This document shows, in pieces, positions 5,015 to 64,000 of a stretch of 64,000 nt of DNA. Source of the DNA: a virus; IMG/VR virus record IMGVR_UViG_3300043409_003117, positions 1-64,000 of that record; one strand, given 5' to 3'. Numbering within the stretch: position 1 is the first letter of the stretch; each line of letters begins with the position of its first letter. The notes beneath the pieces were generated by a model. It saw only the letters and a program-made list of their open reading frames with translations. It made no database searches and had not been told where the DNA came from. Position numbers and translations under genes: made by a program.

Positions 5015-6526
5015 GTGGCAATTATTTTAAAAAAGCTTGATCCAAAAATCCAGCCAAGTCAAATTGAACTTAGAGATCTTGAAAGCCCAGAATCTAAAAA
5101 TAAAATTACTTCACCTAGTACAGTTGGCTTCAAGCAAAATAGCGGACTAGGCGAACCTCTTGTACAAATAGGTAGTATTAGATTAGCTCCTGGCCAAATT
5201 AGGTCATTAAAAATTTTACAAGATGAATTTGTTCCACGAATAATAATTACGCTTATTGATAGGGATTCAGAATTTAGTGCTGGAAAATTTCCTATTTCAA
5301 ATATATTAATTAGTGTATTTATAAAATCGGCGGTTAAAAAGCTTAAAAATTTTTCTTGTGATTTTATAATAACAAATATAAACTCATTTAATATATCAGA
5401 TAGGGATATTCAATATACATTCACTGGAGATATGCATATTCCAAAATTGCATAACAATATATCAAAAGCATTTAACCAAGTTACATCACGTGATGCACTA
5501 TTACTAATTGCAAATGATTTACAACTTGGATTTTCCGACAATTTAACTGAAAATACCAATGATAAAATGACTTGGTTAATTCCAAATTATTCATATAAAT
5601 CTGCAATTACTCATATTAGTAAACTTGCATATAGTAATGAAACACAATTTTTTGAATGTTTTATTGACCGATACTATATGCTAAATTTTATTAATATAGA
5701 AAAACAGTTTGAAAAATTAGATGAGGACTTAAACATTGCATATATTTTAGGGGATTCAAGTAATATAGGCGGAGCTGAACGAGCTAATCCTGATAAAGAT
5801 TCGCTTGAACCAGCAAGTATGCCATTACAAATTACAAATTATCCAGGATTTCGTGATACTGAACTTTTTATACTGGAATATTCACTAGTTAGTAATCATG
5901 GAGAAATTTTAAAAAATAATTCATTACAGCGAAATTTATATTGGTATGATCACGGCGGAAATATTGATAATGAATTAACTAAAACCTCTGACTTAGATTC
6001 AGATAATTTTAATGAACAGTTTATTGAGCCGCTAACTGGAAAACAGGATAATAATGGAACGCTTCCTCAAACAACTAGTGTTTCTGAATTTTTAGATAAA
6101 AAAACGGTAATCGGTCAATGGGTTGGAATTGATTATGGAAATGCTCATACTCATTATAAATTTTCACAATTAATAAATGATCATAATCATAAAGATATTG
6201 AAAAAAATATGCTAAAGGTTAAATTATTTGGATTTAGCCATAATATTATTAGAGGAAGTAGGTTAAGGGTTGAAATTTATATTGATCGAGAATCATCTGA
6301 TATAGCAGAGAGTAACAGACTTGATGATGACTCAACTATTGAGCAATCTAATGAAATTTCAGATTATAAAGGAAATACTGAGCAAATATTACGTGATAGC
6401 TTTTTATCAGATTCATATTATGTTAAAACAATTAATTATAGTTATATGAATGGAATATTTGAAACTGATCTATTATTAACCAAAAGAAATTGGATACCAA
6501 GTATTAAAAATAAAATTAAAACCTAA
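5015..6526 (+). CDS. 27: Baseplate hub protein, gp27-like
   Basis: The 503-residue protein starts with GTG one base after the gp53-like stop. It has the layout of phage hub (gp27/gpD-like) proteins. A first beta domain contains the SIRLAPGQIRSLKILQDEFVPR stretch split around residues 54-76 and IIITLIDRDSEF. A second domain follows, TSRDALLLIANDLQLGF and MTWLIPNYSYKSAITHISKLA (about residues 155-210), typical of the hub's tube-like fold. The last 3 bases overlap region with the next ATG. It probably forms the trimeric hub that holds the spike encoded at 8129. Confidence 0.6.
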   Translation: MAIILKKLDPKIQPSQIELRDLESPESKNKITSPSTVGFKQNSGLGEPLVQIGSIRLAPGQIRSLKILQDEFVPRIIITLIDRDSEFSAGKFPISNILISVFIKSAVKKLKNFSCDFIITNINSFNISDRDIQYTFTGDMHIPKLHNNISKAFNQVTSRDALLLIANDLQLGFSDNLTENTNDKMTWLIPNYSYKSAITHISKLAYSNETQFFECFIDRYYMLNFINIEKQFEKLDEDLNIAYILGDSSNIGGAERANPDKDSLEPASMPLQITNYPGFRDTELFILEYSLVSNHGEILKNNSLQRNLYWYDHGGNIDNELTKTSDLDSDNFNEQFIEPLTGKQDNNGTLPQTTSVSEFLDKKTVIGQWVGIDYGNAHTHYKFSQLINDHNHKDIEKNMLKVKLFGFSHNIIRGSRLRVEIYIDRESSDIAESNRLDDDSTIEQSNEISDYKGNTEQILRDSFLSDSYYVKTINYSYMNGIFETDLLLTKRNWIPSIKNKIKT

Positions 6527-8076
6527 TGGCTACTAATTTAGCAATACCAATAAACGGAATTAACCGAAATGATACGTTTATTAAATCAGCAATGGATGAT
6601 TTACAAGATCCATTATTTTTAACATTTAAACTTGATTTTTTTCCAGAAAGAGAGTCTTTTCCAAAAGGCGATGGATTATATAGTAGCAGTTTACTTAAAC
6701 AGCCTGGAGTGTTTGATGCAGTAGATAAAGGCCGGGATCAAGGAGGTACCGTTGAATATTCTACCCAAGACTGGCTACAACAATATTACGGAACTGACTA
6801 TTTAAGTGAAAATATTAAACAAGGTCACCCTAATCCATACCTAGCACTGTATAAATTTAGAGAAGGACTGCGAGTATTACAAGATATGCCATGGTATTTC
6901 CAGTCTATTACTGGAGTTGGAGATCTTTGGAAAAGTGCACATACTGGAATAACAGATGGATATAAGAAACTGACTAGTGGTGGCTTAACTATTAACTGTT
7001 TAGAATCAGTAATGCAGCCACTGACTGACCTAGCTGAAAATTATAGATATGCAATGTATGATCAAGACCGATTATCATATAGAGTTCCAGAAAATTTAAG
7101 ATGGTTTGATTTGGTAATTGATCTGGTTGAAATTAGGGAGATTGTTGATCGCGGTGGTAATATATTTAAAACAGACCGTAAAGGTAATGTATTAGAGGGA
7201 ATAAAGGTAATTCAATTTAGGTGTAAAATGTGTGAATTTGACTTTAGTGATTTCTTAAGTCCGGTTGGGGTAAGTGATTTTTATTCATATACTTCAGATA
7301 AACCATTTTATCCAAGTTTTAAAATTAAAGTAGGTTGGGTTAATCAAGAAGAGGTTAGTTTACAAGATGCCGCTGACCTAAAAACAGTTGGAACATTTTC
7401 AGCACTATCAAATATAGTAGGTAACCGAATTAATAGATTTATTCAAGGTGCAGGCAGATTACCTGGACAATTAATTGGGTCAGTACTTAATCCATTAACC
7501 TCAGGTCTTGTAGGTAATGTATTCGGTAATGCATATGAAGGAGTTGCATCAGATCTTAAAAACATACCAACACGAATAAGACCTGGTGTTAGACCTATTG
7601 CAGATAGACCTATTCCATATGATACTGCAATATTAGCTGGATTTGCTGATGCCTATCCAGATTCTCTTGAAGAAGCTGGTATTATTAAACGTGGACCACC
7701 AAATAGATTTAATCCAAATCCGCCTCCTCAAAATATATATGATGCTGAGATATTAGCTGGAACAGCCGATGTCTATCCAAATTCAAATAGAGAGCCGGTA
7801 ATTGGGCCTCCAACTGGCAATGCGTATTCTAAACTAACTGAGCCAGCCGCTGGACCTCCAATTGGCAATGCGTATTCTAGCCTAACTGCAACAGCCGCTG
7901 GACCTCCAACTGGAACGGTTTATCCTAATCGAACTGAGCCAGCCGCTGGACCACCAACTGGAGATGTTTATCCTAATCAAACTGAGCCAGCCGCTGGACC
8001 TCCAACTGGAGATGTTTATCCTAATCGAACTGAGCCAGTCGCTGGACCGCCAACTGGAACGGTTTATTCTACGTAA
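6526..8076 (+). CDS. Baseplate-associated structural protein with Pro-rich C-terminal tandem repeats
   Basis: The 516-residue protein sits between the hub and spike genes. Residues 1-300 look globular (LTFKLDFFPE near 31-40; FDFSDFLSPVGVSDFYSYTSD around 240-260) and may correspond to a tube-initiator or hub-associated protein, but I cannot match a specific T4 protein. Residues 423-514 are six tandem 16-residue units of the form EPAAGPPTGDVYPNRT, preceded by two looser YDxxILAGxADxYPxS units. The repeats probably form an extended, flexible arm. The start overlaps the hub stop. Confidence 0.6.
   Translation: MATNLAIPINGINRNDTFIKSAMDDLQDPLFLTFKLDFFPERESFPKGDGLYSSSLLKQPGVFDAVDKGRDQGGTVEYSTQDWLQQYYGTDYLSENIKQGHPNPYLALYKFREGLRVLQDMPWYFQSITGVGDLWKSAHTGITDGYKKLTSGGLTINCLESVMQPLTDLAENYRYAMYDQDRLSYRVPENLRWFDLVIDLVEIREIVDRGGNIFKTDRKGNVLEGIKVIQFRCKMCEFDFSDFLSPVGVSDFYSYTSDKPFYPSFKIKVGWVNQEEVSLQDAADLKTVGTFSALSNIVGNRINRFIQGAGRLPGQLIGSVLNPLTSGLVGNVFGNAYEGVASDLKNIPTRIRPGVRPIADRPIPYDTAILAGFADAYPDSLEEAGIIKRGPPNRFNPNPPPQNIYDAEILAGTADVYPNSNREPVIGPPTGNAYSKLTEPAAGPPIGNAYSSLTATAAGPPTGTVYPNRTEPAAGPPTGDVYPNQTEPAAGPPTGDVYPNRTEPVAGPPTGTVYST
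7792..8073 (+). repeat. Six tandem 48-bp repeats encoding 16-residue Pro-rich units
   Basis: The units read EPVIGPPTGNAYSKLT, EPAAGPPIGNAYSSLT, ATAAGPPTGTVYPNRT, EPAAGPPTGDVYPNQT, EPAAGPPTGDVYPNRT and EPVAGPPTGTVYST. They are in register at the DNA level and run to the stop codon. The last four are nearly identical, which suggests recent slippage or recombination. Confidence 0.9.
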
Positions 8077-22188: not shown

Positions 22189-23913
22189 ATGGCAACAAAA
22201 ATTTTCAAAAGATTGAACGATGCTTCAATCAAAGAAACTTGGACCCCAGTATTAGAAGGTTATGGTGCAAACGTTTCAGCTCGCCCTTGGTTAGTTGACT
22301 ACGCTCACAACCATGCAATTTTCGAAAATGCAGGTTCATTAAACGAAGCTTTAAACACAACAGGCTCAGCTCCAGGTTTGTTTTTACAACAACCAGGTTC
22401 TATCTCTTCAATCGGTGCAATTAGTTCTCCAACAAGTTCTATGACTCCTTTTACTGCAGGTTCTAAAAATGGTTACGGTGCTTCTGTATCTGGTTCTGGT
22501 GATAAATTCCCAAGCCTTTTACCAGTAGCAATTCAAGTAGCTGCTAAAACTGTTGGTTTCGACCTAGTTGGTGTAGTTCCGATGGATTCTCCAGTAGGTT
22601 TCTTACCTTATTTGGATTATGTATACCAAGGTGGTAATACTGATACTCAGTACGAACCATTCTTAGTTAAGTTATCAAGTGCTCTTAATACAGCAATTGT
22701 AGCTGGAGAATATATCCAAGCAGAAACAGACGCTGCAAGTGGCGTTGGTGCATTTAAATTTCAATTCGTTGGAAAATCTCGTATAGACGGTTTACCAATA
22801 CTTAAAGTAGTAACTGGAGCAACTGATTCAGTTAATACAACTACTGTAGCTACTGCGGTAACTGCATTAGATGACGCAACTCATAGTGGTAACCGTACGG
22901 ATACTAGTAATAGTGCATTAGGTACAACTGCTCGTCCATGGTTAGGTTTTGGTGGAGCTGCAGGTATGACTGTTAGTTTAGTATCTGCATTAGAAAATCA
23001 TATTACTGGTTTTACTTCAGTAAGTGATACTGACTATGCTGCTACTTCATTCCAAGGTCCTTTCTTAAACTCAAGTGAAAATCTTGAAATGGAAGGTATG
23101 ACTCGTGCAACTGCTGAAAGTTCTAAATTCCGTCAAATGGGTCTTCGTATGTTTACGAAATTCATTGAGGCAAAAGGAGATCAAGTTTCTATTTCTGCAA
23201 CAGTTGAGCAAATCCAAGATCTTAACCGAGTTTGGAATTTCGACGTAATGTCAATGTTAGAAAACGTTGCTGTTAACGAATTAGCTCAATCTATTAACAA
23301 AAAATTAACTGATAGAGTTTTATCGTTAGGTCAAACTCATGCTACTGCAGTTAATTCAGTTGAAGGTTCTGGAATTACCACTTTAAACTTAACAGTTGGA
23401 ACTGGTTTTGAGAATATCTCAACTTTACAACGTCGTGTTGTTACTAAAATCCTTGAAATGGCTAACTTGATTTATCATAGAGGTCGTTTCGGTGCAGGTA
23501 CATACATCGTAACAAATGGCCGTGTTGCTTCTGCTTTAGCAGATGTTGCTGGTTATACTTTCGCTCCGTTCAATAACGATTTACCTTCTGGTGCTGGTCA
23601 ATTATACCCTGCTGGAAAAGTTCACGGTTTAACTGTGTATGTAGATCCAAACTTGAAATTTAGCGATAACCGTATCCATATCGGCCGTAAAGGTGCAGAT
23701 GAGGAGCCAGGTGTTAAATTCTTACCTTATATCATGGCAGAGAGTCTTCAAACAATTGCAGAGGGAACTTTCTCTCCAAAAATTGGTATGAAATCTCGTT
23801 ATGCAATCACAGAAGCTGGATGGCATCCAGAAACTCAGTATATCACTATGAACGTAACAGGTCTTGGTGTATTAACTGGTTCAGTTGCTCCATCTACTGG
23901 TTACTCTGCATAA
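22189..23913 (+). CDS. 23: Major capsid protein, gp23-like, with inserted domain
   Basis: The 574-residue protein aligns by pattern with T4 gp23. It has a short N-terminal propeptide with a candidate protease site L51-N52-E53/A54. SLLPVAIQVAAKTVGFDLVGVVPM at about 110-133 matches the gp23 entry region, and RQMGLRMFTKFIEAKGDQVSISATVEQIQDL matches the E-loop and backbone helix region. Residues about 169-268 interrupt the HK97-type core at the place where gp23 carries its insertion domain. Codon use is richer in CGT, GGT and AAC than in the neighbours, as expected for a highly expressed gene. The leader is almost pure A/T, and a terminator follows. Confidence 0.92.
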   Translation: MATKIFKRLNDASIKETWTPVLEGYGANVSARPWLVDYAHNHAIFENAGSLNEALNTTGSAPGLFLQQPGSISSIGAISSPTSSMTPFTAGSKNGYGASVSGSGDKFPSLLPVAIQVAAKTVGFDLVGVVPMDSPVGFLPYLDYVYQGGNTDTQYEPFLVKLSSALNTAIVAGEYIQAETDAASGVGAFKFQFVGKSRIDGLPILKVVTGATDSVNTTTVATAVTALDDATHSGNRTDTSNSALGTTARPWLGFGGAAGMTVSLVSALENHITGFTSVSDTDYAATSFQGPFLNSSENLEMEGMTRATAESSKFRQMGLRMFTKFIEAKGDQVSISATVEQIQDLNRVWNFDVMSMLENVAVNELAQSINKKLTDRVLSLGQTHATAVNSVEGSGITTLNLTVGTGFENISTLQRRVVTKILEMANLIYHRGRFGAGTYIVTNGRVASALADVAGYTFAPFNNDLPSGAGQLYPAGKVHGLTVYVDPNLKFSDNRIHIGRKGADEEPGVKFLPYIMAESLQTIAEGTFSPKIGMKSRYAITEAGWHPETQYITMNVTGLGVLTGSVAPSTGYSA

Positions 23914-24035: not shown

Positions 24036-24395
24036 ATGAAATCAGTACTAAGCTATGAGCAATACCTGTTTGAAAAAAAATCAAATAGCGATCTTGCAAC
24101 CGGTACGCCTACAAAAGGTAAATCTGTTACTAAACAGGTAAATAACAATTTAACTGCAGGTACACCAAAAGGAAAATCTGTTAAAAAATCAGTTAATTCA
24201 AGTACTTCAAGTTTACCAAAAGGTAAAGGATCTGTTCCAGGTAAATCAGTTAAGACCAATACTTCAAGTTTACCAAAAGGTAAAGGATCTGTTCCTGGTA
24301 AAAACGTTGACTCTAAATTTGCAAAGATAACAGTTAAAGGAAGTTCAGTTAATAGGAAAGTTGATTCAGCAATGGCAAAGTTGCCAAGAAAATAA
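24036..24395 (+). CDS. Small basic protein with capsid-targeting-like N-terminus, probable internal capsid protein
   Basis: The 119-residue product is rich in Lys, Ser, Gly and Pro and has almost no acidic residues after the N-terminus. It opens MKSVLSYEQYLFEKK, which follows the T4 capsid-targeting pattern with L-F-E as a candidate prohead protease site. Residues 57-95 contain two 19-residue repeats (TSSLPKGKGSVPGKSVKTN). It has its own late promoter, directly downstream of the capsid gene. These features fit a DNA-associated internal protein similar in role to T4 IPI-III. No sequence homology beyond the N-terminus is claimed. Confidence 0.65.
   Translation: MKSVLSYEQYLFEKKSNSDLATGTPTKGKSVTKQVNNNLTAGTPKGKSVKKSVNSSTSSLPKGKGSVPGKSVKTNTSSLPKGKGSVPGKNVDSKFAKITVKGSSVNRKVDSAMAKLPRK
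24204..24302 (+). repeat. Two direct 42-bp repeats in the basic internal protein gene
   Basis: Copies at 24204-24245 and 24261-24302 differ at one base and have a 57-base period. They encode TSSLPKGKGSVPGK twice. Confidence 0.85.
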
Positions 24396-24909: not shown

Positions 24910-25818
24910 ATGATTGGAGAAGGAATAATTGTTGAGTCAATTGCCAGCTTTAAAATTACATGGAAAAATCCAGGTAATGGAATGCAGGCAGTATGGGATC
25001 AAGAAAATCAGGTTATTGAACTTCACGGAAGCGATGTTTATCCAGACTTAGAGTTTGTTAGTGCAACTGGTCTCTCTACCTATTTTACATATTCAACAGC
25101 TGACAAAATTATAGGTTTGTTAAAAGGAATTAACGAAGTTATTAATATTGAATTAACTGAATTATATAAGTCAAAGGATCAAGTCAATGAAGCTGATGTA
25201 GTAAGTCCTACACCAATTGATGCTGCTAATACAATCCCTGAAATTAAACCTGAGGAGGTTGATAAAAAAGATGAAGTTACTAATACTCAAGAACCTAAGG
25301 TTGAGCCTGAGGTACCCGAGTCGCCCAGTGAAGGATTTGCATATACAGTAACTGTACACGGAGATAAATTAAGATTTATTGATGCCAGTGCAGAAAATTT
25401 CAGTTTAATAGTTAAGCATAAATTATCTAATAATATGGGAGTTAAAAAAGAAACTGGAGAAACATTAGATAATAGTTTAAGAATTTGGGCAACGGTACAG
25501 TTAAGTGGTTTATTTAGTGAGACTCATAGATTTAATTTTGAAAAATTTAATAAACAAACTGACTCAACTTCTGAAAATTTATTGGTGCAAATAATTCCAT
25601 CAATTCAGTTAACATTTAAGGCTGGAGAAACAATGACCGCTCCAAATGCTGAGAAAGAAACATATGTTAGTAAAATTGAGCTTTCTAATAGTCAAGTTAA
25701 AAATAAAGACCTACAGAAACAAATTAATATATATAAAAAGCGGTTGGAAACGAACGGTACTCCCATGACAGATGCAGACCTTGCAGCAGAAATGGAAATT
25801 GAAAGAACCAAAAGCTGA
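24910..25818 (+). CDS. Unknown protein of the head/tail gene cluster
   Basis: This is a 302-residue protein with an N-terminal mixed domain (SIASFKITWKNPGNGMQAVWD, residues about 10-30), an acidic Pro/Glu-rich linker at about 95-142 (KPEEVDKKDEVTNTQEPKVE) and a second beta-rich domain (FAYTVTVHGDKLRFID, LRIWATVQLSGLF). The start MIGEGIIVESIAS contains I-V-E, a loose match to a protease site. I recognise no family. It precedes the late promoter of the tail tube gene. Confidence 0.6.
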   Translation: MIGEGIIVESIASFKITWKNPGNGMQAVWDQENQVIELHGSDVYPDLEFVSATGLSTYFTYSTADKIIGLLKGINEVINIELTELYKSKDQVNEADVVSPTPIDAANTIPEIKPEEVDKKDEVTNTQEPKVEPEVPESPSEGFAYTVTVHGDKLRFIDASAENFSLIVKHKLSNNMGVKKETGETLDNSLRIWATVQLSGLFSETHRFNFEKFNKQTDSTSENLLVQIIPSIQLTFKAGETMTAPNAEKETYVSKIELSNSQVKNKDLQKQINIYKKRLETNGTPMTDADLAAEMEIERTKS

Positions 25819-26504: not shown

Positions 26505-27203
26505 ATGGAAATGTTTAATGTAAAGCGCCGAGATAATCCATCTATGGATAATTGGTCAGATATAAAGAAACCTGCCTTTGGTGGACCCAAAGAAAAGGCT
26601 GATTTTGATAAAGCAAAGAAAACTAAATTAAAAGAATACCAACGAATTGTTGAGCGTAATCCTGATGCTGAAGGCGGGCGTTTCAATCCAAATTATGACT
26701 CTGCCTGGAAAGGATTTACGAGTGATATTATATATAGAACAGCAAAGAAAAAATCATATGAACCCATGTATGCAAAAACAACAATTGCAGTAATAGATGC
26801 AATAGAAGAAGGAAATATTATTAGATTCGAAGAATTTATTAATGAAAATTATATGTCAACAGAAGAAGAAGAAGAAAAATTTAATCCAAAGGGCGGTATG
26901 GCAGACGACAACTATTTAGAAGAATCTGAAGATGAAGATGAAGTTGATACATTCAATGAATTCGAAGAAGAAGAAGAAAAAGTAGACTTAGGATATGAAG
27001 TAGATGAAGAGCAATTAGATAAATTATTAGAAGAGTTCGGAGATGAGCTTCAAACTATGATTACTAATATTTGTGAAACTATGGAAATGGAAAAATCTGA
27101 AGTTTGTGACTTATTATGTGCAGCAATTGAAAAGAAATGTAATGAAGAAGATTCAGAAGAAGATTCAGAAGATACTGCCAACAATAATGAAGATGATGTA
27201 TAA
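26505..27203 (+). CDS. Unknown protein with basic N-terminal and very acidic C-terminal half
   Basis: The 232-residue product has a basic first part (KKTKLKEYQRIVERNPDAEGGRF at about 39-60, split here by helix breaks) and a Glu/Asp-rich second part with several poly-Glu runs and a Cys-containing helix (NICETMEMEKSEVCDLLCAAIEKK around 188-211, shown in two parts). Residues 108-114 read FEEFINE, a capsid-targeting-like motif at an internal position with I-N-E. A cleaved N-terminal propeptide or a core protein is possible. It ends the plus-strand head/tube operon at a terminator. Confidence 0.6.
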   Translation: MEMFNVKRRDNPSMDNWSDIKKPAFGGPKEKADFDKAKKTKLKEYQRIVERNPDAEGGRFNPNYDSAWKGFTSDIIYRTAKKKSYEPMYAKTTIAVIDAIEEGNIIRFEEFINENYMSTEEEEEKFNPKGGMADDNYLEESEDEDEVDTFNEFEEEEEKVDLGYEVDEEQLDKLLEEFGDELQTMITNICETMEMEKSEVCDLLCAAIEKKCNEEDSEEDSEDTANNNEDDV

Positions 27204-27230
27204 ATTTAACTAAAAAATAGTTTTATATTA

Positions 27231-39386: not shown

Positions 39387-42300
39387 ATGGCACAGAAATT
39401 AAATTTGAATAATTATAAAGCTAGTGGTGTTTACACAGTTGAGATTGATGAAAGCTCAAATCTTAGCTTACCTTTATCTACTGGTAAATTAGTAATAGGT
39501 TCAAGTAAAAAAGGACCAATTAACTCAGTTGTATTGGTTAATGATACTCGTACGTTAACTGCAGTATATGGAGAAATTGATAATAAATTAGAAAAAAACG
39601 GTAGTTTCTTTCATAGAACAATTGATGTTGCTCTAAGACAAGGACCGGTATATGCATTAAATGTATTACCAGTTAGTGCAACAGATAAAGCCTTTTTTAG
39701 AACATTTAATACTGAATCTGCTTCAAATAACTCAACTTTTAGTGAAAGTTCAAATGACAGTTCAATGTCAAATTTTTATAATAGTCAAAAATTATGGTTT
39801 GCAGACACAGATGCTGTTAATAAGTATAAAAATATTGAGTTAGGTGATGATTATATTGCTAGTCCAACTACATATGGTGTAGCTGATCGCGATGCAAATA
39901 AAATTTTAACAATGGTAAATCTTTCAAAGAAAGATATTACAACATGGATTAGAATTGCAGACACTACAGGTTATGATATATCAGTTAAAGATTATTATAA
40001 ATTATTAGGAGATACTGCTGAAGTTCCAGAATTTTTAAGCCCTGACGATATTATTGCTGACTTTTTCGTTGAAATAATTGTAGTTGAAGGAGACTGGACT
40101 GATAATTTAAAATTAGCAAATGACCCAGTTTATAGTCAATATTTTACAACAACTGGTATAATTGATGCTAAAATTGGAGATTTTGTTTCAATTAAAGAGG
40201 TTACACTGGTTGCAAAAGTTCAAGGAAGTATAATTCCTGAATTTAAAGACCTAACCGGCACAACGGTTTCTATTGATGCACTATTTAATCGTAGATTTGC
40301 TCAAAGTGGAATATATTGTGCAATTGACTATAAGAAAATTGATTTAATGGATTTAACCAATGGTAGTTTTTCAAGCGGTTCAAGCACTGAGCCAATTGCA
40401 GAACAGCGCCTTGACTTAATTGGAGCTGGTGTTGATGAATTAAATTCAGGTACAACTGATTTAGATACAATTAATGAAACTAATTTATATACAGTAGATG
40501 ACGATACTAATGTTCATCAAGCTGTAAATTTAATTGATGTCTTAAGTTATAAAAAACCAGTATCATCAGAGTTTTATTTTGAATTAGAGAGTATTACTGC
40601 AACTGCAGCAACTACCTATGCACAAGGTGACATTTATATTTTTGTAACTGATACAGATACAATTATTGCAACTGAAGGAAGTAAGTTGTATAATGCATGG
40701 GCAAATGGTTTTGTTAAAAATGGAGACTATTTAAAATATAGTTCAACTATTCTATATTTAGCAACTACTGGAGAAATTAAAACTAAAAATTCAGTTAACT
40801 ATATTGTATTTGAAACATACAGTGATTTAACTAGAACAGTTCAGGTTAATGCAGAAGAAACCATGGTAAATGGAGTTAATTTCTTATGGATTCAACAAGC
40901 AGCGGACGAAGATTTTTTAATGGATTTTGACCTAACTGACACTGACTATTTCGTTTCATATTCGTATTTAGCTCCAAATAAATTAATTTTTACAGTTGAT
41001 CCTACCCTTTATGGTAACACAGCAAAAGGTGAATCTGCTACAGCAAATCAAGCACTAGGAATACAATATAATGCAACTAAAAGAGTACTAGTTGATTCAT
41101 ATATGAAAGTTGGTCAATATATCAAAGCTAAAATTAAAACTGATGCAAATGGAGATCCTCTTTCTAGAAATAGAATGTTACAGATTAAATCAGTATACGC
41201 GCAAAAGGTATTAGATATAACTGGCGGACCATCAAATGTACCAGGTTTAATAAGTTTAAAGTATACAATTACTTTATCTTCACCAAGTGATCCAAATATA
41301 TTAGGTATTAATTTTGAAAGTGATACAACAATTAGAGCATACAAAGGAATAAAGAAATATATTACAAGTTTAGCAGGTGCAAAAATACCTGCAATGAATT
41401 TATCAGAAGTTGATCTTTATCCAAATGGAACAGCTGCTCGTCAAAATGATATTTTAGATTTCTTATTTGATAGTAGTAATTTAGCAACTACTCTTGCTGA
41501 TAATGAGACTGTTGATTTTCGCTATATTATTGACTCTTTTGAAGGTCAAATCCAGTCTGGTTCAAAACAGCAATTGGCACAGTTAGCTGCCGATCATGGA
41601 AAAGCACTAGCAATTTGTAATGCACCTTCATTTGCACAATATGAAAGATCAGTAGATCCTAGCTTTATTGATTTTACAACTAGACTAGTTTCAACTGAAG
41701 CAATTTCAACCGGCGGAGACCTAACATCAAATCCGTCATTTACATTTGGATTTGCCACTGGAGATAAAGGCGGTATTGCAGTTTCTACCTATTCTGCCTA
41801 TTTTATGCCAAATGTAGTTATTTTTGAAAATGGTAAGAATAAATCTATTCCACCAGCAATGTATGTTGCAAATACCTTTATGAGAAAATATACAAGCGGT
41901 AATACATTCTCAATTGTAGCAGGTAAAAATGGTATTTTAGCTGAACCAGAAATTAGTGGATTAGAATATGACTTAACTAATGATGATCGTGCCTATTTAG
42001 AGCCAGCCGGATTTAACTTAATTGTTAGACGTAGAGGTTTTGGAATAATGATATTCTCTAATAATACAGGTTTTCAAAGAGTAAGAAGTGCCTTAAATAA
42101 TATACATGTTAGAGAAGCCTTAGTTACAATTGAAAGAGACGTTGAGAGAATTTTACTTAATTTCTTATTTGAATTTAATGATGCAACTACCAGAATGAGA
42201 GTTAAAACCTTAGTTAAAAACTACCTATCTGCCGTTCAAGAAGCTAGAGGTATTGCATCTGCTGAAGTTATATTTGATGATTCAAATAATGGAGTTGAAG

Positions 42301-42440
42301 TTCTTGAAAATAATGCTGGAATAATTGATATTATTGTAGATTTCCCAAGAGGAATACACAAATTTATCAACCGTATTACAATCACAAGAGCTGGAGGTCA
42401 ATTAGCTTCAAGTTCTTCAGGATTTACACCTTCATTCTAA
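39387..42440 (+). CDS. 18: Tail sheath protein, gp18-like, enlarged
   Basis: The 1017-residue protein is longer than T4 gp18 (659). The N-terminal part matches sheath topology (GVYTVEIDESSNL; LVIGSSKKGPIN; RTLTAVYG). The conserved C-terminal domain is clear: GFQRVRSALNNIHVREALVT, ERDVERILLNFLFEFNDATT, GVEVLENNAGIIDIIVDFPRG. Extra length lies in the central surface domains (about 230-690). One module there, VGQYIKAKIKTDANGDPLSRN, resembles modules in the tail protein at 59991. It contracts around the tube during injection and has tandem late promoters. Confidence 0.92.
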   Translation: MAQKLNLNNYKASGVYTVEIDESSNLSLPLSTGKLVIGSSKKGPINSVVLVNDTRTLTAVYGEIDNKLEKNGSFFHRTIDVALRQGPVYALNVLPVSATDKAFFRTFNTESASNNSTFSESSNDSSMSNFYNSQKLWFADTDAVNKYKNIELGDDYIASPTTYGVADRDANKILTMVNLSKKDITTWIRIADTTGYDISVKDYYKLLGDTAEVPEFLSPDDIIADFFVEIIVVEGDWTDNLKLANDPVYSQYFTTTGIIDAKIGDFVSIKEVTLVAKVQGSIIPEFKDLTGTTVSIDALFNRRFAQSGIYCAIDYKKIDLMDLTNGSFSSGSSTEPIAEQRLDLIGAGVDELNSGTTDLDTINETNLYTVDDDTNVHQAVNLIDVLSYKKPVSSEFYFELESITATAATTYAQGDIYIFVTDTDTIIATEGSKLYNAWANGFVKNGDYLKYSSTILYLATTGEIKTKNSVNYIVFETYSDLTRTVQVNAEETMVNGVNFLWIQQAADEDFLMDFDLTDTDYFVSYSYLAPNKLIFTVDPTLYGNTAKGESATANQALGIQYNATKRVLVDSYMKVGQYIKAKIKTDANGDPLSRNRMLQIKSVYAQKVLDITGGPSNVPGLISLKYTITLSSPSDPNILGINFESDTTIRAYKGIKKYITSLAGAKIPAMNLSEVDLYPNGTAARQNDILDFLFDSSNLATTLADNETVDFRYIIDSFEGQIQSGSKQQLAQLAADHGKALAICNAPSFAQYERSVDPSFIDFTTRLVSTEAISTGGDLTSNPSFTFGFATGDKGGIAVSTYSAYFMPNVVIFENGKNKSIPPAMYVANTFMRKYTSGNTFSIVAGKNGILAEPEISGLEYDLTNDDRAYLEPAGFNLIVRRRGFGIMIFSNNTGFQRVRSALNNIHVREALVTIERDVERILLNFLFEFNDATTRMRVKTLVKNYLSAVQEARGIASAEVIFDDSNNGVEVLENNAGIIDIIVDFPRGIHKFINRITITRAGGQLASSSSGFTPSF

Positions 42441-50917: not shown

Positions 50918-53900
50918 TTAAAGAATATGAGGATATACAGCCGGATTAATTGGTGGAATTCCTGGAAATATACCTGGAGACTTTGAACCAAATATTAAAG
51001 ATCCAGTAGCATTCATTGAAAATTTCCAAGCCAATTCATCGAGAAAAATAGTAAATAATGGATTTTTATGAGTAAGCCTTTCCCATGGAGGAAGATCATC
51101 ACTATTAAGTATTGGGTGAAATAGTCTAGCTGCCGTAACTGAAGAAAATGTAATAGGTGGAGCAAACACACATAGGCTAAGTGATGCAATCCAGGCAACC
51201 GGCGATAGGAAAGGCTCTGCCTGTTCGAGTGCAAATAGAGCACCAAGTTTAATAATATTGGTTAAAAGCGGATTTGGAATCATCATTTTATATCCAGGTG
51301 GAATTTCAGAGTCAATTTTCATTATTGCAAGTTTGATCAAGTTAATTTGAAGAATACCTGCCTCTACTATATTATACGAAAATGTTTTTAAGGCCTTTGC
51401 AATATTAGCAATTACATCAACAATTGTTGCAATTGGAATAAGAATATCTTCAAATACCAAAGTAATAAGTTCCCTAACTACTTCAATTAGATCGGCCGCG
51501 GTTAACAAATATAAGTATTCAGAAATATCTATTGGAAATAATGGTAATTTAGGTAAACTAAACCTCTTACCTGTTTTTGAAATTACAGTTAGAACTACCC
51601 TTTTAAGTATTGGATTTCCATTTGTATCTACCGCAATTGTAGAATTTGAACCGGCTACTCCAACTATTTCAAGAGAAACGGTTGAGTCTTTTCCGCAAGC
51701 GGTAGTAAGAATTTGAGTTATTAAGTTTTTATCTACACTAGTGGTTGCCGTAATGGTTTGGGTTGAATTTGAACCTCCACCTACCGTAAATGTATCAGAG
51801 GTTATGGTAAGCGAGCCTAATTTATTAGCCCGTAATAATAATCTTAAAATTGCTTCAATTAGAGCGGCTAAGCCTAGTCCAACTAGTGCTTTGATTAATG
51901 GGTCTAATGGAATAACAATTGGAACAAGTGGGGGATGTAATGGATTTACTGATTTTAAAACAGATAATGATGTTACCATTGGTACTACTGACTGTATAAT
52001 ATATTGTAAAAAACCTGCAATATTAGGTAATGGAATTGGTGGAATCATTAATATTAATTGCTCAATTATAATTGGAATAATTGCACTGGCTAAATCATTT
52101 GGGATTTGAGAAAGTCCCAATAGGTCCATAATACTTTCAGCAGTTAATGAATTTATTAATGCATTAAACAGTTCGTAAATAAGAGCAAGAGCAATTGCTA
52201 AGTCTGGAGAAACACCTGGAAATAATTCAGTTGGTTTAACTTCACAGCACTTTTTATTTAGGTCAAATATATTTATTGCAGGTATACTAAGTAGAGCAAC
52301 GGCAGTTGCTGATAATATTTTTTTAATTGTTTCTTGCCTAGCGGCTTTAGCCCTAAGTATTTCAGCTTTTTCAGCTTCACTAACGTCCTCATCGGTGTCA
52401 TGGCCAACATCTTCTCCCTTTATATAGTCTAATATGCTTTTAAAAAAATCCTTTAATAAATCTTTAAATTCTTTAATGCCTTGCGCAGTATTAAGGTTAA
52501 ATGATTGGTATTTTTGTAATAGATCTTTTACTTTTTTAGTTTCTAGAATTATTGCAATTAGTGTAATAATTTGTTCCTGTAGTGTTGATATCAGCGGTAT
52601 AGCTGATCCCAGTGCAATTAACTCAATAATATCTTCAATACACTTAAGTACCTCAGGCAAACCTGGATTATGTTTAGATGCATCTTTTGGAAATTGTAAA
52701 ATTCCAAATTTCATTTTTTTATCGTAAAAGTTAGTAAAATCTGCAATTGTTGCATCAATTTGTTGTGGAATAGTTAGCGGATTTGCATTACGTGCAGCCT
52801 TTCTATCCTTTCTCTTTTTTTCTAAATTAGTTTCATTAGAGGCATCGGCTTCCTGTTCTCCTCTATTTTGTCTAACTCGGTCTTTAAGTGCAGAAATTGC
52901 ATTAATTGGTATATCACCAATTTTATTAAGTTGTTTATTAATATTACTTTGAAGCTTAACAATATCTCTAGTAAATTCACCTCCGCCATCTGCAATTAGC
53001 ATGGCTAACATCATTTCAGCTTCACTTAATTTATCTAAAAATGGAATTCTACCGGCGGCTATATCCTCAGCAATTTGAGCTAGTCTAGCTGCTTTGGCTG
53101 CAGCCGCAACCAGAGCTAAAGGAGAACTTAATGCACCTTTTATTACCTGACCTTTATATGGATTCAATATATTTATTCCTAATGGGTTTCTGGAGTCTGG
53201 ACCATTATCTAATTCATATCCAAGAACAAGCGGTTTATTAGTAGCTGGGTCACTATATAACCAAGTTGGATTGGTTGATGCTGCTAAATATTTATTTCCA
53301 TCTGGTCCAAAATACAAAACATATATAGAAGGTATAGGTATAGGAAATGGAACTATTTTAATTTCATCATTGTTTATATCAATTGTTTTTAGTTGGCTTA
53401 CAGCTCCGGTAATACCTGCAAGTGATATAGGTTGTATAGGTTGTAAAGGAGTTCCCAATAACAATGATTGAGCAATTGAATTAGCAGTTGATAGAGCATC
53501 AATTTCAACTTGTTTGGTTGCGGATACTACGGCAGCAATTGGCTCTATTACTGATTTTTTGCAAGTAATTGGTAATCCTAGTATTATTACAATTGTACCT
53601 AATGGTGTAGGTATTGAAATTAATGGTTTATAGAATTGAGGTAACGGTAGTGTAAGTATACCTCCAGGAATAGGTATAAATGTATTAATTGGATAATATC
53701 TAAATCCTAAATTTGCTGGAGGAGGTCCACTTAGGTCTGGGAATGGAAGTATTGCTACTTTATTTAAACTTTTTGTAAATTCTTTCCAATAACACTGTGA
53801 TGTAATATCTGGAAGGCCTGAATCATTTCCATCAAGCGTTCTAATAATAAATGGGTCCTTTCCTAATTGAAGTCTAGCCGTTACTTCACAATTTTCAGCG

Positions 53901-56074
53901 GGTTTTTTAATAGAAGCAGCTGCCGCTTTAAAACACGGAATAGCTAAAATTTTATCAGTTAAAATGGTTGGGTCTAGTGAATTTTCTTTAATTATTACCT
54001 CTAAATTTGCTAATTCAGTTTTGCAATCGGCTAGATTATTAGTAATTAATAAATTTGATTGTAAATAATACCCGTATACAGTAGATAGAGTAGGGGATTC
54101 ATTAAACTCTTTAATTCCTTGTGAATATTGAATATTAGAGGTTTGTGAATAGGTAACTGGTCTATAAAATTTTAAATATGAACTGTTAACTTTTTGTCTA
54201 AATATTGTTGCAACTTCTTTTTTTGCAAATTCTTTAATTATATTAGTAAATTCTAAAATTACAGATGGATAGGTTTGTTCACGCTCTATTTTAATTCTAG
54301 CGGCTGACTCTGCACCAAAGTCTTCATAAAATTTAGAATACGTTTCAATATTTGAAATATATAAAGTTCGTGTATTTGATGGGCTGTCATCATCTATCTT
54401 ATTATTAATTTTTTCTTTAATAGTACCAGCCTCTAGCGAATCTTTAAATGAAGCGTCAATATTGATAGGACTAAGAGAAAGCCCGCGTTCTACTAGCGTA
54501 AATAAGTTATTAATTGGATCGGCTAATCGATTATATAGACCATTATAGTATTCACCAGCAGCGCCATTATATAGTAAACCAGGTATACTTGCATAGTCGG
54601 CTCTTGGTTTTAAAAAAGGTAAATCATCTGGATCATAATATGAACCTGAGTCTTCAGTATCAGTAATTCTATCATTGGGGTCATCAGTGTCACTAAATTT
54701 TCTAATTACATAAACATTATCAAATATATTAGTAGTTAAATACGGGCTGTTTTTAATAGGAATAATAGTGTCAGGCGTTATATCTACTACTGGCTCTATT
54801 AACTTACCGTCTGATCCTTTAGCATTTATATAGCCAATTGATCCATCTTCTAACTCAACTGGCAGTTTAATTTTTACAAAGTTACCATCAATAATTCTAG
54901 GAACTAATTTTAAATTAAATATTTCAATATTGTTAGGGATAATTTGAGTGGTTAATCCTAATGAGATTTGACCAGATATTTTTAAAAATGCTTCGGATAG
55001 TTCTGCATAAATAGTTCGGTCGGTTATGTCAATAATATCAATTTCACTTAATATATTAGATTGAGCAACCAGTGCCTCATTTTCAAAATTTAGTTTTTCA
55101 CGATATGCATATGCTAATTTTTTAAGTAATGTGATCCATGTATTTAGCTCAGGCAACTCAGTATTAAAATATTGTATATATTTAGTAGGTTCACTAATTA
55201 TATAGTATTTGAGGTCTGAGTAATCAGGGTCGTCTGCTGTTACATTAATATTTAATAGAGTAAAGTTTTTATTGGTAGCATCGGCAGTATTAAATAGATT
55301 AAGAGTTGGACTAATTATTACTTCTAAATTGTCTGAAACTAAATTATTTGAAATTAGATTATTAATTGCCTCATCAACAATAGTGTCATTTGGGTTTTTT
55401 AAAATTTCATAAGTAGAAATAGCAGTACCAGAGTCAATGATGGTTGAAGTTGGATATAGATTAGATAAACGGGCAATTCTAAAAATAATAGTTTTAATAA
55501 GAGATTCCTGTCTGTCTTTTTGGCTGTCATTTGGGGCTTGAGAAAATTGATTGCCAAAATTAGTAGGTTTATATTTTACAAACGCATCTCTGGTATTTGA
55601 AATTTTAGCTGCAATGCTTTTAGTAATTTGATCAATTTCAATTTCAATAGTATCAACTTCATCTTCCCAATACCTATATTGCGAGGCAAGAGGTTCAGTT
55701 ATATCAACTATTGAATTAAAAAAATCAACCCTTTCCTGATTGTATATTTTAATAATATCAAGGTTATCAATAAGCTCTTCAACTTTGGACTTAACAATTG
55801 CAGCTTTTATACTGGTTGGAATTTTTTTAGTTTCCTCTGCAATTATCTCTTTAACTTTTTCAGTCGCGGCTGGAATACAACCTGTTTTAGAAAGTGTATC
55901 CTTTTCAATTTGTTCAAGAATTTTAGCGGTTGGGTCAGTAATTAAAATATCAGGCTCAGCAACAGTCTGAATACAGGTTTTTGCCCTAACTAAATCAGCC
56001 TCAGTAAACATAATACTTGAGACCGCCTCACATTTAATCTGATTAATTATAGCCTTAAATGTTAATTCTGCCAT
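50918..56074 (-). CDS. Very large structural protein, probably baseplate or tail; tape measure not excluded
   Basis: This 1718-residue protein is one of the longest in the window. N-terminal 1-700 is rich in Ile, Asn, Asp and Thr. The middle (about 780-980) has Pro-rich loops (PFPIPIPSIYVLYFGPDGNK) and an Ala-rich helix (SPLALVAAAAKAARLAQIAE). Several long hydrophobic helices follow (around 1240-1480, for example IPIIIEQLILMIPPIPLPN and VGLGLAALIEAILRLLLRA). Such stretches occur in tape-measure proteins and in large wedge proteins. I cannot assign a T4 homologue. A weak AAATAAATAC late-type site lies just upstream (56081-56093, reverse strand). Confidence 0.6.
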   Translation of the reverse strand: MAELTFKAIINQIKCEAVSSIMFTEADLVRAKTCIQTVAEPDILITDPTAKILEQIEKDTLSKTGCIPAATEKVKEIIAEETKKIPTSIKAAIVKSKVEELIDNLDIIKIYNQERVDFFNSIVDITEPLASQYRYWEDEVDTIEIEIDQITKSIAAKISNTRDAFVKYKPTNFGNQFSQAPNDSQKDRQESLIKTIIFRIARLSNLYPTSTIIDSGTAISTYEILKNPNDTIVDEAINNLISNNLVSDNLEVIISPTLNLFNTADATNKNFTLLNINVTADDPDYSDLKYYIISEPTKYIQYFNTELPELNTWITLLKKLAYAYREKLNFENEALVAQSNILSEIDIIDITDRTIYAELSEAFLKISGQISLGLTTQIIPNNIEIFNLKLVPRIIDGNFVKIKLPVELEDGSIGYINAKGSDGKLIEPVVDITPDTIIPIKNSPYLTTNIFDNVYVIRKFSDTDDPNDRITDTEDSGSYYDPDDLPFLKPRADYASIPGLLYNGAAGEYYNGLYNRLADPINNLFTLVERGLSLSPINIDASFKDSLEAGTIKEKINNKIDDDSPSNTRTLYISNIETYSKFYEDFGAESAARIKIEREQTYPSVILEFTNIIKEFAKKEVATIFRQKVNSSYLKFYRPVTYSQTSNIQYSQGIKEFNESPTLSTVYGYYLQSNLLITNNLADCKTELANLEVIIKENSLDPTILTDKILAIPCFKAAAASIKKPAENCEVTARLQLGKDPFIIRTLDGNDSGLPDITSQCYWKEFTKSLNKVAILPFPDLSGPPPANLGFRYYPINTFIPIPGGILTLPLPQFYKPLISIPTPLGTIVIILGLPITCKKSVIEPIAAVVSATKQVEIDALSTANSIAQSLLLGTPLQPIQPISLAGITGAVSQLKTIDINNDEIKIVPFPIPIPSIYVLYFGPDGNKYLAASTNPTWLYSDPATNKPLVLGYELDNGPDSRNPLGINILNPYKGQVIKGALSSPLALVAAAAKAARLAQIAEDIAAGRIPFLDKLSEAEMMLAMLIADGGGEFTRDIVKLQSNINKQLNKIGDIPINAISALKDRVRQNRGEQEADASNETNLEKKRKDRKAARNANPLTIPQQIDATIADFTNFYDKKMKFGILQFPKDASKHNPGLPEVLKCIEDIIELIALGSAIPLISTLQEQIITLIAIILETKKVKDLLQKYQSFNLNTAQGIKEFKDLLKDFFKSILDYIKGEDVGHDTDEDVSEAEKAEILRAKAARQETIKKILSATAVALLSIPAINIFDLNKKCCEVKPTELFPGVSPDLAIALALIYELFNALINSLTAESIMDLLGLSQIPNDLASAIIPIIIEQLILMIPPIPLPNIAGFLQYIIQSVVPMVTSLSVLKSVNPLHPPLVPIVIPLDPLIKALVGLGLAALIEAILRLLLRANKLGSLTITSDTFTVGGGSNSTQTITATTSVDKNLITQILTTACGKDSTVSLEIVGVAGSNSTIAVDTNGNPILKRVVLTVISKTGKRFSLPKLPLFPIDISEYLYLLTAADLIEVVRELITLVFEDILIPIATIVDVIANIAKALKTFSYNIVEAGILQINLIKLAIMKIDSEIPPGYKMMIPNPLLTNIIKLGALFALEQAEPFLSPVAWIASLSLCVFAPPITFSSVTAARLFHPILNSDDLPPWERLTHKNPLFTIFLDELAWKFSMNATGSLIFGSKSPGIFPGIPPINPAVYPHIL

Positions 56075-56186: not shown

Positions 56187-58521
<2,335 letters not shown>

Positions 58522-59990: not shown

Positions 59991-62900
59991 ATGAATATTG
60001 ATAATCTAGTATTTTTTGATAAAAATGGTGAATCTTATAACTTCGGCCGATCCAGTTCTGGTAATTGGGAAGGCGCCGACTATTTTTTACCAATATCACT
60101 AGAACTATATGATTGCTCCAATATTTTTATTTTAGAAAATACAAATGGAGTATATACCTTTCCTAAAATGGAATCAGGTTCAAGCTTTGAAGTAAAGTGG
60201 AAAACTGCAAATAATAAAACTAATTTATTTTTATTTAATGTATTGGTTGAAGGAACTGGTACTGCTGCCTATAACTATCTTGAAAAACAGGAGTATATTA
60301 CAATTAACCATAGTGATTTTGGACAGGCTGGAACCCTTGCTTTAACCTATCCATTGCAGTTAAATATTGCATTTACTCCATCTGACGAAATTGCATACGC
60401 TAGAGTTTTACAAATTTATTATAAAACAACAACAGACTCAACCCTAGTATTAGAGCTTACAGTTTATGGAGAAGGCGAGGGCGAAGACGAGAGACTTCGG
60501 ATATGGTTAGCTAACTTTGGCATTAAGTTTAATCGACAAGATGCTCTTTTATTAAAAGACTATGATTTAAAAGAAGCACTGGCAGATTATAAAGAGCTTA
60601 ATGCGGTTAGAAAATTAATACTGGTAAACCGTGATCAAATCTATCCATATATTGGAACCTATAAAGGTTTATTAAATATACTTAGCTTAATGGGTTATCG
60701 TGACGTATTAAGAGTAAAGGAGTATTGGCGAGATATTGATCCAAACTCTTCGTATTATAATAAATTTGCAATGGTTGACTTTACTGATTTATTAGATAGC
60801 ACCGAAGACACTACCTTTGATTTAGTTGATCAAAATAATCAAATAAAAACCGGCGGTAAATTTGAAAAAACTGAATTTCTTGCGTTAACCTATCAATTTT
60901 CAAAAGCTGGAGATACATATGACGATGATGGCTTACCTAATGTTATTACAACTACTGATTTTACAGTAAATGAAATATTTTTTAAATTACATGGAGTTGT
61001 TGTAAAATTAAAAGATGAAATCATACCAATTAATGTAGTAATCAAGGATATTATAGGGGAATTTATCTATTTTGAAAAATTTAATATTAGATATTGGATA
61101 GATGAAACAACAATTGAATCCTTTAGCCTTAGTGATGAATATCAAATTAATATAGTTGAACCGGCTGACTATGTTTCAAGCTATAACTATACACTTGACA
61201 CTCCTGTAATTTCTAAAAAAATTAAATTATCAAGTCCACTTAATCCAGCAATTTTAGTAGGTCAATATATTCTACCGGAAGCGAGTAGTCAATATGGGCT
61301 ACTTAAATTTCAATTTGTTAGAAAATCAAAAATAGACGGTTTACCAATACTTAAAGTATTAACTAGTAATACAAATACAACTGGTTTATTTAACGATTAT
61401 CAAGATCTACAAACGATAGCTGGTGCCGTAGCTGCATTAGATAATGTACAACATGACGGTACTCGTATTGATACTGGTTCTGATGCAACAGGTTCGATTA
61501 CGCAGCCGTGGTTAGGTTTTGGTGGAATTAACGGTATGACTGCTACTTTAATAGCTGATTCAGAACAAAATATTGTAGATACCATTCAAAATGCAAATTC
61601 TAACTATTTAAAAATTAGGGATCTTAAACCTCTTTATCGTAAAGCAAATGGAGTTTCAATATTTCCAGAAACATCATTTAATTTAGGACTAATTGACCCA
61701 TATGACGATAGTCAATTTTATTCTGTTGATAAAAAGGATACCTTAATCCAAACAATATCAGACTACTATTCAACGCTTAAATCATTTATCTTTGAATATC
61801 CAAATAGCGTAAGTCCGTTAGATCAAGGCGATGATACTTCAGATAAAATAGGGTGTCCAATTGTACTAGAGGCATATGTTCCAGATTTAACGCTACAACA
61901 GTTAGATGGAATACAATTTATTGATTTTATAACGGTTGCTGCAACCACTTCATCGAGTACGAATACAATTGGTACCGGCCTTAAATATTTTAGTTGTGCA
62001 ACCATACAGCCATTTGCAGTAGGTGACTATATTAAAGTATATCAATCAGCTAATTATACTAATTATATGATAGGCCGAATTACTGAAATAAACCCGCCTA
62101 GTATGTCGGGTAATACAATATTAATAGATGTATATTCTTATAATGGAGAAGGTACACTCACCGGCTGGACCGTGCAGTTAATTGACAGACACTTTACAAT
62201 TAACAATCTTAAATATAAAAATGTTTATGAAATTGAATGGATAATAACCGGTCCTCAAGAGTATAGATTTGAATGGAGAACTAGTACTCTTGGTACTAGT
62301 AAAATTCCTCACATATTACCACATACTGGAGAATATACAATTGAGGTTAGAGCATATGATATGTCAGGGGCAGTCTCTAACCAATTTAGAAAAATTACAG
62401 TTTCTCCAGACCAACCTATTATTCAAGTGTTTACTAAAATATCTGATAAATTTAGATATGATTTTAAGAACCTAGATAATGTAACAATTGGAGACTTAGC
62501 AGATAGCCCATTATATTATCCATATCTAAATGTAATAAATTCAGAAATATCTTCAATTTCAAATCACTATTTAGATTGGAATACATACTCTAATTATTAT
62601 GGAGTAGGTGCAAACCATAATGATATTAAACTTTCAACTACTGGAAATTCATTAATTCCCTATTCTCAATCAACTGAAACCATTAAGAATAGCTGGGGAA
62701 CAGGTTCAGCCAATGGGCAGGCCACCATTTCTAATTATTTAACTGCAAGTCTTGGTGATCTATACTATGTTAACTTTAGTAATTTTGGATTGACCGCTGA
62801 CCAATTAGATGGATTCTATATTACACTAAGAGGCGAAGATTATCAATATAATTTAAACTCAAATTTAGTAGCAATTAAATTTGGTGGATTTGATGAAATT

Positions 62901-64000
62901 GACTTAACTGCACTCGCTAATCCAACAATTGAAGAGGTATTAAATTATTTACAAAATACTTCTGCACCAGGATTATCTAACTATTCATATCAAATAATTG
63001 AAACAACGTTTGGGCCTAGTGCACTTCCTCTTAGTCGAATAAAAGCAACTGCTACCTATCAGGATCCACAAAATCATTCAATTATTAAATTAATATCTAT
63101 TGTAACCGGATTAGATTCAAGCCTGAATAAATGGACTCCAAGTTCTGCTAATTTAACAATATCATCAACTGATCCATTAATATATGGCCCATCTAGTTTA
63201 CCTCAAACTGTATATGGCCCATCTAGTGTACCAGTACCTGCAATAACTGATGGAGAATATACATTAACTGACTTTGGCGGTTCTGAAACTCTATATGGTA
63301 ATACATATTTAGCAGTAGGCGACCGATTAAGAATTCAAAATGATAATGGCGACTATATAGAAGGAACTATTACTCAAATGACAGTTGGCCAAACTGTTAT
63401 TATAATTGATGAAGCTCACGGAGCAGGTATCCTATCTGATTTTAACCTATTTTTAATTGATACAGTATATACGTTTAATAAACCAGTATCAGTATTTAAT
63501 CAAACTGAAATTGATAAAATTCAACAGAATTTATTACAAACAAATTTAAGAATTGATGAAGATCTATTATTTTTAGACTGTCCATTTGATGATTGCCTAC
63601 AGACCTTAAACCCATATACTCCAGCTGCTGCCTCTAATATTAATTATTGGATTGATAAAGGCTTTGTTAAATATGATAATTCAGAAACCAGCCCATCGTC
63701 TATTCCAGCAAGTCAAACTGGTTATTTACCATCAAATTATGATGAAAATTCATTTAATTTAAGTAATATTAAATTAACATATGGTTCATTAATTGTTCCT
63801 TTACATCATCCTATTTTTATTACTATTGCAAACTTAGTTTCAAATATTGAAACTGTATGGACTTTAAAATTAAATAATGAACTTATTGTAAAAGTTATTT
63901 CAACATCTTATTTTATATGGAGATTTACTAAACCTGGTACTTATACACTTGACATTGACTCAGTTGATACTAGAGGAAATCACTCAATTTCAAATTCTAG
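59991..64000 (+). CDS. Giant baseplate/tail protein (gp7-like position), 3' end outside the window
   Basis: An open frame from the ATG at 59991 continues past the window end and gives at least 1336 residues. Residues 1-165 are beta-rich. Residues 170-260 contain ALLLKDYDLKEALADYKELN and GLLNILSLMGYRDVLRVKEYW, which I associate with baseplate wedge proteins. Residues about 420-520 form a domain homologous to the major capsid insertion. Two small modules start VGDYIKV and VGDRLRI, and PKD-like Ig domains occur near 750-800 (HTGEYTIEVRAYDMSGAVSN) and at the end (PGTYTLDIDSVDTRGNH). A 30-base tandem duplication at 63181-63240 encodes YGPSS twice. Role as a wedge or fibre-connecting protein is inferred. 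Confidence 0.7.
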   Translation, partial: MNIDNLVFFDKNGESYNFGRSSSGNWEGADYFLPISLELYDCSNIFILENTNGVYTFPKMESGSSFEVKWKTANNKTNLFLFNVLVEGTGTAAYNYLEKQEYITINHSDFGQAGTLALTYPLQLNIAFTPSDEIAYARVLQIYYKTTTDSTLVLELTVYGEGEGEDERLRIWLANFGIKFNRQDALLLKDYDLKEALADYKELNAVRKLILVNRDQIYPYIGTYKGLLNILSLMGYRDVLRVKEYWRDIDPNSSYYNKFAMVDFTDLLDSTEDTTFDLVDQNNQIKTGGKFEKTEFLALTYQFSKAGDTYDDDGLPNVITTTDFTVNEIFFKLHGVVVKLKDEIIPINVVIKDIIGEFIYFEKFNIRYWIDETTIESFSLSDEYQINIVEPADYVSSYNYTLDTPVISKKIKLSSPLNPAILVGQYILPEASSQYGLLKFQFVRKSKIDGLPILKVLTSNTNTTGLFNDYQDLQTIAGAVAALDNVQHDGTRIDTGSDATGSITQPWLGFGGINGMTATLIADSEQNIVDTIQNANSNYLKIRDLKPLYRKANGVSIFPETSFNLGLIDPYDDSQFYSVDKKDTLIQTISDYYSTLKSFIFEYPNSVSPLDQGDDTSDKIGCPIVLEAYVPDLTLQQLDGIQFIDFITVAATTSSSTNTIGTGLKYFSCATIQPFAVGDYIKVYQSANYTNYMIGRITEINPPSMSGNTILIDVYSYNGEGTLTGWTVQLIDRHFTINNLKYKNVYEIEWIITGPQEYRFEWRTSTLGTSKIPHILPHTGEYTIEVRAYDMSGAVSNQFRKITVSPDQPIIQVFTKISDKFRYDFKNLDNVTIGDLADSPLYYPYLNVINSEISSISNHYLDWNTYSNYYGVGANHNDIKLSTTGNSLIPYSQSTETIKNSWGTGSANGQATISNYLTASLGDLYYVNFSNFGLTADQLDGFYITLRGEDYQYNLNSNLVAIKFGGFDEIDLTALANPTIEEVLNYLQNTSAPGLSNYSYQIIETTFGPSALPLSRIKATATYQDPQNHSIIKLISIVTGLDSSLNKWTPSSANLTISSTDPLIYGPSSLPQTVYGPSSVPVPAITDGEYTLTDFGGSETLYGNTYLAVGDRLRIQNDNGDYIEGTITQMTVGQTVIIIDEAHGAGILSDFNLFLIDTVYTFNKPVSVFNQTEIDKIQQNLLQTNLRIDEDLLFLDCPFDDCLQTLNPYTPAAASNINYWIDKGFVKYDNSETSPSSIPASQTGYLPSNYDENSFNLSNIKLTYGSLIVPLHHPIFITIANLVSNIETVWTLKLNNELIVKVISTSYFIWRFTKPGTYTLDIDSVDTRGNHSISNS
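61248..61550 (+). repeat. Segment homologous to the major capsid insertion domain (22693-22992)
   Basis: Residues 420-520 of the giant tail protein match capsid residues 169-268. Examples are KFQFVRKSKIDGLPILKVLT against KFQFVGKSRIDGLPILKVVT (17 of 20 identical) and the PWLGFGG and GMT blocks. The DNA shares an exact 27-base run (22783-22809 and 61332-61358). Confidence 0.9.

Follow-up and report, generated by a model that had tools for sequence, protein, structure and literature searches.

Can an insertion domain of a phage capsid protein be copied into a tail protein of the same genome, and be kept there? The question is raised by two genes of the IMG/VR virus record IMGVR_UViG_3300043409_003117, of which positions 1 to 64,000 (hereafter the window) were analysed; the parent viral record has 64,946 bp, and the window covers nearly all of it. 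The source is a large phage of T4 type that has Lak and other huge phages among its relatives. A GroEL-type chaperonin ORF (56187-57758, minus strand; family read from the sequence only) and several related contigs of 252-271 kb recall, by description only, the moraphages, which are large freshwater phages of 200-307 kb with a heat-shock gene and T4-type core genes (PMC12619734). The window also encodes a very large tail sheath protein of 1017 aa (39387-42440; PHROG tail sheath families).

The first of the two genes (22189-23913, plus strand) encodes the major capsid protein of gp23 type, 574 aa long. As a whole, the ORF belongs to Pfam family PF07068, Gp23 (139.4 bits against a cutoff of 24.4, E = 2.7e-40; this concerns the ORF and not the module described below), matches the major head protein family phrog_138, and is 30-37% identical to the capsid proteins of Lak and huge phages. 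Three huge-phage records (LR756500, LR756501 and LR756503) each hold two places that match the capsid protein, possibly owing to a gp24-like second capsid gene.

The second gene, also on the plus strand, starts at 59991 and runs to the end of the window at 64000; its stop lies beyond and was taken from the parent record, giving an ORF of 59991-64094 and a large tail or baseplate-type protein of 1367 aa, recognised by its ORF, its PHROG match and its orthologues. Residues 139-379 correspond to phrog_28177, a family without assigned function, a weak PKD-like Pfam match falls below the cutoff, and homologues occur in Bacteroidota phages. In a PDB search with the profile of the protein no match fell below E = 0.05 and none was to a baseplate protein, so that no sequence match to a solved baseplate wedge protein of T4 gp7 type was obtained. 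In Tenacibaculum phage PTm1 the homologue is encoded a few genes after a gp6-like baseplate wedge gene, and no baseplate wedge annotation was found beside it in the MaF61, MA9V-2 and PAU records. The label 'baseplate protein' may thus reasonably be applied, from gene neighbourhood in distant relatives only.

A variable capsid cassette and its homologue in the tail protein

The first-pass annotation of the window had claimed that parts of the two proteins are homologous, and they are. In a BLOSUM62 local alignment, capsid residues 143-283 (22615-23037, plus strand) pair with tail residues 393-539 at a score of 283, compared with a maximum of 68 in 200 shuffles, and the two segments are 47% identical over about 131 residues. 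When the capsid segment was searched against the virus's own record, only two places matched, the tail one with E = 1.2e-25. The tail copy is therefore a significant sequence homologue of the capsid insertion domain. The tail interval first proposed, 61248-61550, is homologous but too small: the core of the tail copy (IKLSS to SEQNI) occupies 61221-61574 and is 46-58% identical to the capsids of the L001/L008-L015 subclade, and the probable full insert, delimited by a turn in the orthologues, occupies 61167-61607 (both plus strand). On the capsid side, local alignment, hypervariability and the position relative to gp23 place the core, or insertion-domain cassette, at about residues 160-270, and the shared module measures about 110-120 aa. 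The motifs IDGLPILKV, PWLGFGG and GMT are common to both copies. A run of 27 identical bases, coding for IDGLPILKV, lies exactly where it had been reported, at 22783-22809 in the capsid gene and at 61332-61358 in the tail gene (plus strand in both). The same 27-mer is also present in the capsid genes of L008, L009 and L015; it is not special to the capsid/tail pair and reads as a conserved stretch of local capsid alleles.

The capsid segment had been assigned to the place where gp23-like proteins carry their insertion domain, and the flanking sequences agree. In the capsid profile, positions 12-143 correspond to gp23 7-132 and positions 295-525 to gp23 244-479; the module makes up the stretch in between, at the E-loop location that separates the N-terminal from the long-helix block. 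Since similarity to T4 gp23 is present to either side of the module and undetectable within it, the module takes the position that the insertion domain has in gp23.

Comparison of related capsids showed that the module is a hypervariable, sharply bounded cassette, the capsids L008-L087 included. Capsids that are 95-99% identical elsewhere share 54-80% within it: the window and L010 are 98.7% identical outside the module and 79.5% inside, and for L012 and L034 the values are 95% and 54%, the latter pair looking like a whole-module swap. Along the protein, sliding identity falls sharply around residue 150 and recovers by about residue 300, and between the window and a collinear contig the module is the local identity minimum, the rest of the capsid being 99% identical. 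Divergence confined in this way would point to diversifying pressure and to transfer of the module among phages, and the earlier proposal of a mobile module is supported on the capsid side, where the cassette is apparently exchangeable. A literature search on hypervariable capsid insertion domains brought up no paper whose title and abstract identified it as describing this case.

A search of viral_contigs, phages and genome_contigs gave no match outside capsid genes and this tail gene; the module was not found in bacterial genomes and phage records, and its eight matches in viral_contigs all lie on contigs with already known capsid genes. The first-pass annotation had suggested looking for it in both the gp23 and the tail proteins of related phages: it is present in gp23-type capsids, and none of the 31 related records has a second copy or carries it in another tail protein. 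Within these collections, a wider family of the module in tail proteins was accordingly rejected.

Structure prediction was of limited resolving power. The AlphaFold model of the capsid protein reached a pLDDT of 52, and the tail fragment, folded from an 8-row alignment that includes capsid rows, reached 40 overall and 54-79 over parts of the module, values too low for superposition. Strands, a helix and a strand are predicted in the same order in both copies, although the two predictions are not independent given the capsid rows in the tail alignment. When the low-confidence capsid model was compared with the PDB, the core of the T4 capsid was the sole match, and it superposed poorly (TM-score about 0.2, normalised by query length). 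No Pfam or PHROG family, and hence no Ig-like one, matched the module segment.

Insertion site, direction and age of the tail copy

Tail orthologues were gathered from viral contigs; three distant homologues (L113, L117 and L118) are not alignable at the insertion site. In all close orthologues other than the window and L003, a short turn lies between a conserved proline (P391) and a KIRD block. At this one exact site, and in frame, the window has 147 residues. The tail copy is thus an inserted module, as had been supposed, and is absent from the tail orthologues; the full insert is carried by one phage only, that of this record.

The contig of the nearest relative, L003, is 95 kb long and collinear with the window, with 96% DNA identity over 36.8 kb and 89-92% in the stretches that include the tail gene; the L003 tail protein is 93% identical to that of the window. 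At the insertion site it has a filler of about 40 aa (ISANNLISFNGAFVPSNN), which begins and ends like the insert (shared edges DYVSS and VDTIQNANSNY) and has no recognisable capsid similarity. From these shared edges only, the filler looks like a cut-back insert. The edges of the insert resemble those of the capsid segment weakly, with p of about 0.08 (protein) and 0.01 (DNA) at the 5' edge and about 0.013 (protein) and 0.002 (DNA) at the 3' edge. Common edges are what a single event would leave, and the simplest reading is one in-frame insertion, corresponding to about capsid residues 143-283, in the common ancestor, with later removal of the core from the L003 lineage. Separate insertions into a shared hotspot are possible.

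Every capsid relative that is intact over the region has a domain at the module position, and a version matching the tail copy along its full length occurs only in the subclade that comprises the window and L008-L015. In a tree, the tail copy sits on a long branch next to the subclade to which the capsid of the window belongs. From the presence of the domain in all intact capsids, the closeness to one subclade, the tree and the absence of the module from other tail proteins, we infer that the copy probably moved from head to tail. Synonymous divergence (dS) between the tail copy and the window's own capsid is 0.40, compared with 0.42-0.52 for L008, L009, L015 and L010 and 0.8-1.3 for L011-L014. 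A source in the own genome is likely, although the value for the own capsid is not significantly below those of its neighbours.

The identical 27-base run had been taken as a sign of a recent copy or of ongoing gene conversion. This reading was rejected as the main one: at DNA level the two copies are only 70% identical, with dS 0.40 and dN 0.38, and the run recurs in three other capsids. An insertion before the window phage and L003 split fits the edges that the two share, and also the dS values, which are 0.40 for the duplication and 0.29 when their tail genes are compared with each other. The GC content of the insert (33%) lies between that of the capsid module (38%) and that of the tail flanks (31%), so that its base composition has partly adjusted to the tail gene.

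Other parts of the window also vary. Between 53900 and 55900 most 200-bp windows are 61-81% identical to the relative, as against about 96% around them; this stretch lies within a 1718-aa ORF (50918-56074, minus strand) that had no Pfam or PHROG match. Divergence peaks between window and relative are also seen at 25617-25817 and 26817-27217, near a putative tail tube gene (weak tail tube match). Repeats of about 48 bp lie at 7836-8070, in the 3' part of ORF 6526-8076, with several matching registers in the relative, and directly after the capsid gene a small basic repeat protein with SSLPKGKGSVPGKS motifs is encoded (24036-24395), with an exact repeat at a spacing of 57 bp.

Maintenance of the tail copy and alternative explanations

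On balance we favour a genuine head-to-tail duplication of the capsid insertion domain, with the copy kept in the tail, as the probable explanation of the whole. The capsid would hold a beta-rich insertion domain of about 110-120 aa at the gp23 insertion-domain position, and in an ancestor of the window phage and L003 the DNA coding for it, with short linkers, would have been copied in frame into a turn of the tail protein. In the window phage the copy would have persisted as a domain that folds on its own and is probably exposed at the surface, constrained in its core and free of contacts with the HK97 core; in L003 it would have been cut down to about 40 aa. The tail copy would then most likely be a displayed contact domain with the same role as the variable insertion domain has on the head, a putative role that may be weak host-surface adhesion or variation that evades recognition.

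How far selection maintains the copy can be read from its substitutions, which also bear on the idea that the insert is tolerated, largely functionless, has drifted since the duplication and is being lost, as the L003 filler would show. Between the tail copy and the own capsid dN/dS is 0.95 (95% CI 0.57-1.64), compared with about 0.3 between most capsid alleles; this value, like the near-complete loss in L003, is what drift would give, and selection may have been relaxed over part of the module. Against drift, the frame has stayed open over 147 codons at dS 0.4, the indels are of whole codons only, and the core is constrained: the tail copy has the residue of its own capsid at 41 of the 52 positions invariant in the other capsids of the subclade, whereas among the 46 positions that vary it does so at 14 (p = 2e-6, Fisher test), some of the differing columns reflecting change on the capsid side. 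The capsid-invariant SALEN return or exit strand, which in the capsid leads back to the HK97 core, is lost in the tail copy, where ADSEQ stands in its place. A kept core with a lost exit strand would be expected of a fold retained outside its old context, and we regard functionless drift as improbable.

Another course of events, which we consider rather unlikely, is that the module was acquired horizontally from another phage of the same subclade after the split from L003, the filler of L003 being an unrelated insert at the same hotspot. The apparent movement of the capsid module between phages, seen in L012 and L034, would provide the means, the dS to the own capsid is not clearly below that to L008, L009, L015 and L010, and the filler bears no visible likeness to a capsid. 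The edges common to insert and filler are nevertheless those of one event, and viral_contigs and phages yielded no foreign sequence nearer to the insert than the own capsid subclade. That the insert is an assembly chimera, a capsid fragment misjoined into the tail gene, would agree with its presence in one record only, but we judge this very unlikely. Both joins are in frame and fall exactly at the turn site of the orthologues, the insert fits no known capsid allele (at most 58% amino acid identity), it has changed residues that are invariant in capsids, as in SALEN, and the sole identity with the capsid gene of at least 20 bases lies inside the insert, with none at the joins. With a genuine duplication as the preferred reading, we put forward only tentatively, as somewhat doubtful, the broader idea that this group of large aquatic phages has a pool of diversifying, horizontally exchanged capsid surface cassettes which can also be placed on the tail. 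If this were true, head and tail would display related variable domains, as an evolving surface coat or adhesion system.

Relation to known domains of phage heads and tails

Insertions of comparable size are known from other capsids. The I-domain in the E-loop of crassvirus capsid proteins is an exposed beta-barrel insertion of about 100 residues that forms part of the capsid surface (PMC10172136). The module resembles it as a beta-rich insertion of about 100 residues at the E-loop position, and differs in belonging to another phage group and in having a tail copy, none being described for crassviruses in the portion of that source consulted. The crAss-like phages also have repeats of the BACON domain, of carbohydrate-binding type (PMC6949934). 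The parallel with BACON is that, among Bacteroidota phages, a phage protein has gained an extra domain; the module, however, matches no Pfam family. We know of no BACON domain in a capsid protein.

The insertion domain of T4 gp23 and gp24 is chitin-binding-like (PMC3185693, PMC10229621) and has an exposed loop (PMC10229621). The module is similarly situated, following the N-terminal block of the capsid and preceding its MGFRIDKQVIEAK block, and differs in having no detectable sequence match to gp23. The T4 insertion domain is not known from any tail protein.

The closest parallel lies in the Ig-like domains, which tailed phages carry in coat insertion domains, in tail components and decoration proteins, and in the initiators of the baseplate wedge (Fraser et al. 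2007, as given in PMC7602432). These add-ons are, like the module, small optional beta-domains of head and tail, apparently moved from gene to gene and presumed to mediate weak adhesion. The module differs from them in having no recognisable Ig-like match and in its predicted helix; furthermore, its copies are clear sequence relatives that share a genome, and they can be traced to one capsid subclade and to one site of insertion. The capsid/tail pair thus joins the known sharing of surface domains between heads and tails, with an unusually clear evolutionary record. Such sharing is usually inferred from resemblance of fold alone, whereas here a single directed event can be followed in the sequence: a domain of one capsid subclade entered one turn of one tail protein, and relatives without the insert, as well as one that was probably cut back, are available for comparison. 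The natural alleles of the capsid cassette, moreover, make the role of a variable head domain, be it in adhesion, in evasion of capsid-sensing defence or in stability, directly testable.
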